A DNA stretch of 64,000 bases. It comes from Verrucomicrobiia bacterium (lineage in GTDB: Bacteria > Verrucomicrobiota > Verrucomicrobiia > Verrucomicrobiales > DEV007). Shown here piece after piece: positions 10,397-22,496 of the stretch. Every line of letters starts with the position of its first letter. The stretch's first letter is position 1. The DNA lies in contig JAUIAH010000042.1 in NCBI GenBank assembly GCA_030425385.1, positions 1 through 64,000 on the forward strand. Reading direction: 5' to 3'. A program made the position numbers and the translations under genes. The notes under the pieces are model-generated. The model made no database searches. It was not told the DNA's origin and was given only the letters and a program-made list of their open reading frames with translations.

Positions 10397-11941
10397 ATGA
10401 TGAAGCTACCCAAACACACACGACCACTCGCGTTCGCATTTCTCGCACTCGCCACCGTCCCCGTTTCGGCGAGCACGGTGACGCAGGACGATCCTGTTCC
10501 TAACGAATATCCTGAGCCCGACTTCATTACCAACGGCGGCATCCCCTACACCTGGACTGTCCGCATGGCTGATCGGGACACGGCAGAAATGAGTTCTCAC
10601 GTGGGTGCGTGGAGCTGGGATGAAGATGCCTTTCCTGAAACGGCCAAGGGATGGACCCACACCAGCCACTGGGTTGCCCTCGAATTGGAAAAGGACACCT
10701 CGTTCACCGTCCGCCTTCAGGCCAAGAGCGATGTTCCCAATCCCGATCCCGACGCGGAAAGCCCTACCTTCGGAGGCCATCTCTTCCCCGGCTTCTCCCT
10801 CTACCGTGGCTGGCAGGATCACGGCGAGGATGGCCACACTTTCAACAACGTGGGCACCATTGCCTGGGCTCCCGACGTGACCTATGTCGCGCATGCGTCC
10901 ACCACGGAGGCACACACCCTGGAGCGGACCTGGCATTTGGCCGCAGGCAAATACAGTCTCGCGCTCGGTGGCAATTCCCCTAGCACATTAGCTGAAGGGC
11001 GCCAAGGCTATCTGGCGAGCTTCACGACTGTGCCCACGGCCGAATCCGCTACGGTGCGTCAGGAAGATCCCGTGCCTAACACGTATCCTGAGCCCGATTT
11101 CGTCACCGACGGCGGCCTTCCCTACACATGGACCGTTCGCATGGAGAACGCGACATTTGCCAGTGTGAGTGCCCATGTGGGGGCTTGGAGTTGGGATGAG
11201 GATGCCTTTCCCGAAACGGCCAAGGGATGGACCCACACCAGCCACTGGGTCGCGCTGGAATTGAAGGAGAACGCCTCGTTCACGGTGCGCTTGTCGTCCA
11301 AAGACGACGTTCCCAATCCCGATCCCGACGCGGAAAGTCCCACATTCGGAGGCCATCTCTTCCCTGGCTTCTCCCTTTACCGTGGCTGGCAGGATCACGG
11401 CGAGGATGGCCACACCTTCAACAATGTGGGTAACATTGCCTGGGCTCCCGACGTGACCTATATCGCGCATGCGTCCACCACAGAGGTACACTCCCTGGAG
11501 CGGACCTGGCATTTGGCCGCAGGCAAATACAGTCTCGCGCTCGGTGGCAATTCCCCTAGCGCATTAGCCGAAGGTCGCCAAGGCATCCTCGCCGAGTTCG
11601 CAACGGCTCCGTTGGATTTGAATCTGACCATCGCCCGTATGGAAGGCGGCCACAAGATGCTTCGCTCGCACACCCACGAAGGCCTTCGCTATCAGTGGCA
11701 ATCCTCGGCTGATCTTGTGAAGTGGTCAGCCATGGGTGATCCCTTCACGGGCGATGGCTCTCTTCAAACCATGCATTTGCCTCATGCCGGCAAAGCCACC
11801 TATGCGCGCTTGGCGATCCTCGCCGATCACGCCATGGCTCATGAAGACATGACGGTGGAACCTGGCGACGGCGACGGCGAAGCGGATCCCGAAAGCGAAG
11901 GCGGGAACCACCAGCATCAACATGGAGGCGGCGGCGAATGA
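10397..11941 (+). CDS. Trp/His-rich secreted protein with duplicated domain
   Basis: An exported 514-residue protein of unknown function. A signal peptide (MMKLPKHTRPLAFAFLALATVPVSA) precedes two tandem copies of a 192-residue domain (residues 27-218 and 219-410). Each has the conserved WTVRM, HVGAWSWDEDAF, GWTHTSHWVALEL and FPGFSLYRGWQDHGEDGHTF. The many Trp and His suggest metal binding or an oxidised cofactor site. A C-terminal YQWQSSADLVKWS tail follows, and the last residues are acidic then HQHQH. ATG 10397 is preferred over the upstream 10259 frame, which overlaps the cytochrome gene. Its stop overlaps the next start (ATGA), indicating coupled translation with the His-loop outer-membrane protein. 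Confidence 0.7.
   Translation: MMKLPKHTRPLAFAFLALATVPVSASTVTQDDPVPNEYPEPDFITNGGIPYTWTVRMADRDTAEMSSHVGAWSWDEDAFPETAKGWTHTSHWVALELEKDTSFTVRLQAKSDVPNPDPDAESPTFGGHLFPGFSLYRGWQDHGEDGHTFNNVGTIAWAPDVTYVAHASTTEAHTLERTWHLAAGKYSLALGGNSPSTLAEGRQGYLASFTTVPTAESATVRQEDPVPNTYPEPDFVTDGGLPYTWTVRMENATFASVSAHVGAWSWDEDAFPETAKGWTHTSHWVALELKENASFTVRLSSKDDVPNPDPDAESPTFGGHLFPGFSLYRGWQDHGEDGHTFNNVGNIAWAPDVTYIAHASTTEVHSLERTWHLAAGKYSLALGGNSPSALAEGRQGILAEFATAPLDLNLTIARMEGGHKMLRSHTHEGLRYQWQSSADLVKWSAMGDPFTGDGSLQTMHLPHAGKATYARLAILADHAMAHEDMTVEPGDGDGEADPESEGGNHQHQHGGGGE
10475..11626 (+). repeat. Tandem intragenic duplication, period 576 bp
   Basis: Two copies, 10475-11050 and 11051-11626, in frame with a 192-codon period. 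Long stretches are nearly identical in DNA, including third positions (for example around 10636-10680 and 11212-11256). That implies a recent duplication or ongoing gene conversion rather than old domain repetition. Confidence 0.8.
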
Positions 11942-20366: not shown

Positions 20367-22496
20367 ATGAAGTGGTTCGTTACCCTAGCACTCTTGTGGG
20401 CAATGATAGCTCCCGCGCTGGCCCAATTCCCGGGCCTGGGTGGTGGCAGCAATTCCGTGAAGGTGGAGTTGGTGAGCGAATTGCGAACCGTGGTGCCCGG
20501 AGAGGCATTCTTTGTCGGGCTCAAGATGGAGCACGATCCCGGCTGGCATAGCTACTGGACGAACCCAGGCATTGGCATGCCGACTGAGGTGGCGTGGGAA
20601 TTGCCTGAGGGGTTTGAGGCGGGAGAGAAACTTTCGCCCATGCCAGAGGTGAAGGAAGACGTCATCGGGAACACCCACATCTATCACGACACCATCTATC
20701 ATGTTTACCAAATCAAGGTGCCCGCCGATTTGGAAGCTGAGACCGTGACCCTCAAGGGAACGGCAAGTTGGCTGCAATGCATTGAGGATCGTTGTGATCC
20801 GCCTCAAAGGGCCCCAGTCGAAATCACGCTCGCCGTGGGAGACACCGCCGAGGTCAATGAAGATGTCCGCATCGATCTCGACGAGGTGCTCGCGCAACAG
20901 CCAGAGGCCCTCGATGCTTGGGAGATCGCGACGAGTCAGACCGCGGAGACCTACACCTTTACGTTGACACCGGGCGACGGCGCGAATCGCGATCCTGGAA
21001 AGATCTATGTTTTCGAAGAAGAACAATTGCTCGCCGCGGCGAATCCTCAGGTGACGAAAGAGGGCGACAAGATCATCGTGACGGCAGCTAAAGAGGGCGA
21101 AGACGAGATCGCTCAAGTGTCAGGATTCCTTCACGCCGAGAATGGCTGGGTGGATGGCGTGGAAGGCAAGGTCGCCTTGGCTCTCTCGAAGCCGGAAGCT
21201 GGCGATGATGGGCGTAGCGGCAAAGTCGTTAATCTGTCAGGGGAAGAAGAGAAATCGCTCACCATCTGGCTCGCCCTGGTGCTCGCCTTCATCGGCGGCA
21301 TGATCCTCAATCTCATGCCCTGTGTCTTTCCAGTCCTGAGCATCAAGATCTTGGGATTTGTCGAGCAAGCCTCGGAAGACCCTGGCAAAGTCAAACAACA
21401 CGGTCTTGCCTTTGGCGTGGGCGTCATCGTTTCCTGTCTCCTCCTCGCGGCCATCATCATTGGGATCAACGCGGCCACGGGACAGGCGAAAGGATGGGGA
21501 TCGCACATGGGATATCCGCCAGTGGCCGCAGCCGTGGTCATCATCATGTTTGTGCTAGGACTGAACCTCGCTGGCCTTTTCGAAATGGGCACGTCGTTGG
21601 TGGGCGCCGGGAGTACGCTTTCGCAAAAGAAGGGCCTCAGTGGCAGTTTCTTCTCCGGCGTGCTCACCACGGTTGTGGCCACGCCATGCAGCGGCCCCTT
21701 CCTAGGGGTGGTGATGAGTTACACCCTTTCCCAACCCATTCATCTGGCCCTTGTGCTCTTCACCTTCTTCGGCGCGGGCGTGGCAGCTCCCTATGTCCTC
21801 CTCTCCTTCTTTCCAAAGCTGGTGGAGAAGCTGCCTCCTCCGGGCGCCTGGATGGAGACGTTCAAACAAGTCATGGCTTTTCCCATGTTCGGTGCGGCCA
21901 TCTTCTTCTTCCGCAACTTTGTCGATAAAACAGGGGCTGCCGGAGCGACCTGGTTTCTCACGGGCCTGCTCTTCATTGCCATGGCCCTGTGGATCTATGG
22001 GAAATGGTGCACGCCCATGCGCAGCAAAGCGACACGCAACCGCGGGATCATCATCGCGCTCCTGGTGGCTGCGCTAGGCTTGAAGGTCGTTCATTCCTCG
22101 ACCCAATACCGCGCCAAGCCCAAGAATACCGAACTCGCTACCGCCACCCAGTTGGCTGACCGCATCCGCGACCTGCGCGACGAAGGGCGGATGGTCTTCG
22201 TCGATTTCACAGCCAGTTGGTGAGCGACTTGCCAAGCCAACCACAAGCGTGTCTTCTCCTTGCCAGGTTCTGGTGAGGTGAAAGCCAAGATCAAGGCCGA
22301 GAACATTGCCGTTCTGGAGATCGACATTGACGAACTCGAAGGCGGCTGGGAATTTCTCAAGGAGGAATACAATCGCGCTAACATTCCGGTCAACGTGATC
22401 TACCCGACCGACTTGCAGCGCGCCCCTATCTTGCTCCCGGAGTTCATCGGTCCTACCGAGGTCCTGAAAGGATTCGAGAGCGCGAGCAATCCCTAA
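20367..22496 (+). CDS. dsbD: DsbD thiol:disulfide interchange protein with in-frame TGA (possible selenocysteine)
   Basis: Inner-membrane protein that moves reducing power from cytoplasmic thioredoxin to the periplasm. A signal (MKWFVTLALLWAMIAPALAQF), an N-terminal domain (about 25-190), a multi-helix core (about 290-590; LNLMPCVFPVLSIK and ATPCSGPFLG carry its Cys) and a C-terminal thioredoxin domain. Codon 619 is TGA (22221-22223) where FTASW-x-ATCQAN requires the first Cys of WCxxC. The frame then runs on in good thioredoxin-like sequence to TAA at 22496. This suggests UGA read as selenocysteine, giving a UxxC site. Alternatives are a Cys-to-stop mutation or a base error. About 709 residues if read through; the part before TGA would lack the whole thioredoxin domain. 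Confidence 0.8.
22258..22278 (+). promoter_or_regulatory. Candidate bacterial SECIS-like hairpin
   Basis: CCTTGCCA pairs over eight positions (two G-U) with TGGTGAGG around a 5-nt loop GGTTC. The loop begins with G, as bacterial SECIS loops do. It starts 43 nt after the TGA, further than the usual 16-37 nt, so the fit is imperfect. A nearer hairpin (22224-22250, stem GCG-CTTG/CAAGCGT with one bulge) has a 12-nt loop with a single G. Neither is conclusive. Confidence 0.3.

Follow-up and report, generated by a model that had tools for sequence, protein, structure and literature searches.

A DsbD from Verrucomicrobiota with selenocysteine almost certainly at its first thioredoxin-domain redox position and a probably relocated SECIS hairpin

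The window, the whole 64,000-nucleotide stretch of DNA analysed here, derives from an uncultured Verrucomicrobiales bacterium. Judging from sequence comparison, this organism almost certainly makes a form of the membrane disulfide reductase DsbD in which selenocysteine (Sec) replaces the first cysteine of the active site, a trait that it shares with dozens of relatives. Taken as a whole, the observations are best explained, with high confidence, by a selenoprotein DsbD in which UGA 22221 is read as Sec and a hairpin with its loop 43 nt after the UGA (+43) has most likely taken over the SECIS role. Disulfide isomerases and the maturation of cytochrome c both draw on DsbD; the finding would make Sec central to periplasmic disulfide reduction across a large Verrucomicrobiota/Planctomycetota group, in a gene that ordinary annotation would cut short at the UGA.

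Architecture of the dsbD gene

The dsbD open reading frame, with a signal-peptide-like N terminus, runs from an ATG at 20367 to a TAA at 22494-22496. It contains a single in-frame TGA (22221-22223), followed by 90 sense codons before the TAA. Reading across it yields ...RMVFVDFTASW-TGA-ATCQANHKRVF..., which places the TGA at the first Cys position of WCxxC, and the thioredoxin domain thus reads WUATC. The first-pass annotation had described the frame FVDFTASW-TGA-ATCQANH, with TGA at the first redox Cys, and re-reading the sequence bears this out; the peptide itself starts at 22197 rather than 22201, and the frame is open as described, the quoted length of 91 codons having counted the stop.

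Pfam places DsbD_N (alpha, 43-149), DsbD_TM (beta, 301-517) and Thioredoxin_7 (gamma, 595-679) on one chain, each above its cut-off, in agreement with the DsbD identity proposed earlier; PF13098 scores weakly. Each of the three domains carries a redox pair, with U replacing the first C in gamma. The alpha pair is Cx4C here and Cx5C in E. coli DsbD. A homology search of the organism's own genome found one DsbD only and no second copy, and a PDB sequence search returned generic thioredoxins and one DsbE-like chain, nothing closer.

Table 1. Features of the dsbD gene and of its candidate recoding elements, in window coordinates
Feature	Position	Strand	Basis
dsbD gene, 709 codons including one putative Sec codon; signal peptide, alpha/beta/gamma domains	20367..22496	+	sequence, Pfam
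Alpha-domain Cys pair C138-x4-C143 (QCIEDRC)	20778..20795	+	read from sequence
First transmembrane (TM) redox Cys, C319 (LMPCVFP)	21321..21323	+	read from sequence
Second TM redox Cys, C441 (TPCSGPF)	21687..21689	+	read from sequence
Gamma thioredoxin-like domain (Thioredoxin_7)	22149..22403	+	Pfam
TGA as putative selenocysteine U619, position 1 of the UATC redox motif	22221..22223	+	homologue comparison
Resolving cysteine C622 of UxxC	22230..22232	+	sequence
Predicted spacer helix starting in the UGA and adjoining the +43 hairpin (speculative)	22222..22253	+	fold
Decayed 3-bp remainder of the +24 SECIS hairpin typical of the family (AAG-CGUGU-CUU)	22245..22255	+	fold; by-eye comparison with sister sequences
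Candidate relocated SECIS UUC-U-CCUUGCCAG-GUU-CUGGUGAGG-U-GAA, loop 22267-22269	22254..22282	+	folding, G002 comparison

Conservation of the UGA codon

The same codon is UGA in at least 77 non-identical DsbD homologues from Verrucomicrobiota and Planctomycetota, with conserved sequence downstream, and this recurrence excludes chance. The UGA aligns with the conserved redox Cys of homologues, and the Cys homologues checked carry TGC or TGT at that codon. Comparing relatives at the codon, and beyond it as a pseudogene check, had been proposed by the first-pass annotation; relatives carry either UGA or TGC/TGT, followed by intact sequence, which, together with the Sec genes described below, upholds its selenoprotein reading.

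UGA DsbD is present in all four genomes of the genus and, at the same codon, in 21 of the 63 family genomes with a DsbD match. Twenty of these 21 carry selA, the single exception being 54% complete, and selA is missing from 19 of the 42 non-UGA family genomes (Fisher p = 0.0012 for the association of UGA-DsbD with selA). Because 23 non-UGA genomes also possess selA, the co-occurrence is one-directional. Beyond the family, a 388-genome sample of the phylum gave one further internal-TGA match among the matches listed, so the trait is patchy within the phylum. A pattern scan of GTDB contigs revealed, among the matches listed, many further UGA DsbDs. They come from Verrucomicrobiales, Akkermansiaceae, a Kiritimatiellia MAG and Planctomycetota, and most of them are full-length proteins with an intact downstream domain. 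Against the nearest relative (G002), protein identity is 66% before the UGA and 63% after it, with dN/dS (NG86) of ~0.16 upstream and ~0.12 downstream.

One family member (G030; C86, C182, C296; L028, L058) carries UGA-DsbD beside Cys-DsbD paralogues, possibly as a Se-responsive pair. The TAG noted in the G217 DsbD turned out to be the ordinary stop at its end.

On a 123-row tree, UGA forms cluster, with 2 state changes against ~38 in shuffles; this tree is biased because the GTDB-contig scan took in UGA forms only, its Cys forms coming from the window's phylum alone. One UGA group spans 50 rows, mostly Verrucomicrobiota with Pirellulaceae embedded, and the other 25 planctomycete rows. The position of Pirellulaceae inside the Verrucomicrobiota-type UGA clade suggests transfer. 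Members of the planctomycete clade (L097, L099, L101, L106-L108, L115, L125, L129, L131-L132 and others) are ~30% identical to the window protein and have their hairpin at the same position as other UGA homologues.

Selenocysteine machinery and other UGA frames

The 8.0-Mb host genome encodes selA (491 bits), selB (283 bits, 658-aa frame), tRNA-Sec (selC; 65 bits, anticodon TCA, i.e. UCA) and selD (361 bits, with an internal TGA). Since all four components are present, which is the check the earlier reading had called for, the organism is a Sec decoder. The selD gene is itself a UGA gene (L018, ~1500-2454 on the minus strand of C23 in the same genome), with the motif TCGUAAKIDPVG (CGUAAK) at its UGA and a GGUC-loop hairpin 17 nt 3' of it.

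Further UGA frames were noticed during the searches. Shorter thioredoxin-like proteins (L133, L159, L162, L166, L170, L171) read DFTAxW-UGA-xxC with the frame open downstream, and are candidate non-DsbD Sec thioredoxin-like proteins of Planctomycetota, Phycisphaerae, Granulosicoccaceae and others. DFTADW-UGA-PSC thioredoxin-like frames in two Planomicrobium genomes (L111, L137) could be errors, pseudogenes or Sec genes. Within the window, a read-through scan gave three other TGA continuations, with no recognisable conserved context. A 573-codon plus-strand frame at 11939 stops at a TGA, beyond which another 73 codons of high GC3 (0.78) remain open, with no conserved Cys context; its TGA is probably an ordinary stop.

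SECIS position in related genes

Hairpins were evaluated with histograms of their positions, with Cys homologues as controls and by synonymous recoding. When each sequence was searched for its best hairpin bearing a G at one of the first two loop positions, the loop fell 23-25 nt after the UGA in 70 of the 77 UGA homologues; hairpin positions in Cys homologues are scattered, with no preference for +23-25. The strict bSECIS model specifies a loop of 3-9 nt with G in the first two positions, a stem of 4-16 bp, an MFE <= -7.5 and a loop 16-37 nt from the UGA (PMC13188914), a distance that applies, according to the same review, to most but not all bSECIS. These rules are satisfied by 51 of the 77 UGA homologues versus 6 of the 48 Cys homologues. 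The commonest geometry is shared by 31 sequences. Of these, 16 have GC and 15 have CG as the closing pair, and at an outer pair 12 have UA and 11 have CG; these GC/CG and UA/CG swaps in the +23-25 hairpin are, on sequence comparison, compensatory change.

A probably displaced hairpin in the window and its nearest relative

The +24 stem is reduced to 3 bp in the window and has none in G002. The two sequences share a GUU-loop hairpin at +43, encoded by LPGSG codons where sister sequences are ~3 residues shorter. In the window, this hairpin comprises a GUU loop, a 9-bp stem and 3 outer bp (~-15 kcal/mol), values within the bSECIS limits for loop, stem and MFE; its loop lies 43 nt after the UGA, as in G002, outside the 16-37 nt range. 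Both the hairpin and its unusual distance had been flagged in the first-pass annotation and both are real, the loop lying at 23-25 nt in nearly all other Sec-DsbD genes.

The hairpin core, CCAGGTTCTGG, is identical between the window and G002, whereas upstream fourfold sites are only 44% identical (99/225). Synonymous recodings fold as well as the native hairpin in 4.5% of cases for the window and 5.4% for G002, borderline values that are not independent of each other, and against shuffles the stability of the G002 hairpin is unremarkable (z -0.59). Across 387 genomes of the order, 2 carry the +43 hairpin and no third genome has the arrangement. The spacer helix is predicted in both sequences, with z-scores against shuffles that are not significant.

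Sequence comparison thus makes it probable that the +43 hairpin is the SECIS, relocated in the window lineage by ~20 bases from its usual place. To a fuller account we give slightly less than even credence: the +24 hairpin was lost, a GUU hairpin arising de novo in the +43 insertion recruits SelB, and the spacer helix shortens the effective distance. If true, this would represent a natural bacterial SECIS past the 37-nt limit and a captured instance of SECIS turnover, and the window/G002 pair would make the SelB distance rule testable on natural sequences.

Alternative explanations and proposed mechanism

TGA is a stop in code 11, and a true stop here would truncate DsbD and make the gene a pseudogene. 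This reading is very improbable, as this UGA is shared by 77 non-identical homologues, drawn from two phyla, whose downstream domains are intact, the genome holds the Sec machinery and the sequence 3' of the UGA is under purifying selection. The chance of a one-base sequencing or assembly error at the TGA is next to negligible, with three genus relatives and other genera carrying UGA at the same codon in independent assemblies; by these comparisons the pseudogene and sequencing-error readings are untenable. Under a variant code that assigns UGA to Trp, Cys or Gly the frame would also remain open, but UGA is confined to the redox-Cys position and the full Sec pathway, including a Sec-SelD, is present, which makes such a code exceedingly improbable.

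Alternatively, the UGA may be a Sec codon by descent that is now served by a weak SECIS, with most translation stopping there and leaving a DsbD that lacks the gamma domain, perhaps as a form of Se-dependent regulation. Consistent with this, the +24 hairpin typical of the family is broken (3 bp) in the window and missing from G002, and its substitute lies outside the usual distance range. The gamma domain is nevertheless under purifying selection (dN/dS ~0.12) and the genome has a single DsbD found, which together indicate that the full-length product matters and leave the weak-SECIS account unlikely.

Under the preferred selenoprotein reading, SelB and tRNA-Sec would decode UGA 22221 as Sec, producing a periplasmic gamma domain with W-U-A-T-C; in the window lineage the +24 hairpin would have decayed and the GUU hairpin in the ~3-residue insertion at +43 taken over. 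The first gamma Cys of E. coli DsbD is the exposed nucleophile, receiving electrons from the TM domain and passing them to the alpha domain. By analogy, electrons would flow from cytoplasmic thioredoxin to the TM pair C319/C441, on to the U619/C622 selenenylsulfide/thiol pair of gamma, and then through C138/C143 of alpha to periplasmic disulfide or cytochrome-maturation partners. As the exposed gamma nucleophile, Sec would be expected to accelerate both gamma exchange steps or improve resistance to over-oxidation, and a more reactive DsbD reductant is plausible on the same analogy. Because only one DsbD was found in the genome, this disulfide-reduction branch would depend on selenium.

Comparison with known systems

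E. coli DsbD (NF001419, PRK00293) has the same alpha-TM-gamma order and redox pairs, but has Cys at the first gamma position where the window has Sec; the window protein scores 95.8 bits, below the 330-bit cut-off. Verrucomicrobiota Cys-DsbDs are mostly 37-46% identical to it over TM plus gamma and differ in carrying TGC/TGT at the site and no consistent +23-25 hairpin.

The conserved-domain entry cd02953 is presumably DsbDgamma. Under it, 22 GOS metagenomic Sec sequences are recorded as 'Trx-like 2 (thiol disulfide interchange protein)' and, like the window, have UxxC in a DsbD-gamma-type thioredoxin domain; the available part of that source presents metagenomic sequences and does not describe a full-length three-domain form, host phyla or a conserved SECIS position (PMC2398784). 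A Sec 'thiol:disulfide interchange protein' of the UxxC type, again like the window, is known from three Deltaproteobacteria, in Syntrophus and Geobacter (PMC1794560), and a thiol:disulfide interchange selenoprotein, WP_011366075.1, is listed under PF13098 (PMC13188914). By these descriptions, the Syntrophus/Geobacter protein is set apart from the window protein by its host group and by PF13098 versus Thioredoxin_7.

The best NCBIfam match is the TsoB rhodanese/DsbD fusion-like selenoprotein (NF045694), which covers the DsbD TM and gamma regions at 128.6 bits. Membership was rejected: the cut-off is 805 bits, and where TsoB combines two Sec residues in UxxxxU with a rhodanese fusion (PMC13188914), the window protein has a single Sec, in UxxC, and lacks a rhodanese domain.

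A search of the open-access literature, supplementary tables apart, found no mention of a DsbD from Verrucomicrobiota or Planctomycetota, and in that searchable literature neither the shifted SECIS nor the wide spread of full-length Sec-DsbD appears to have been reported. Sec thiol:disulfide interchange proteins as such are already on record; what is unusual here is the lineage-specific shift of the SECIS.
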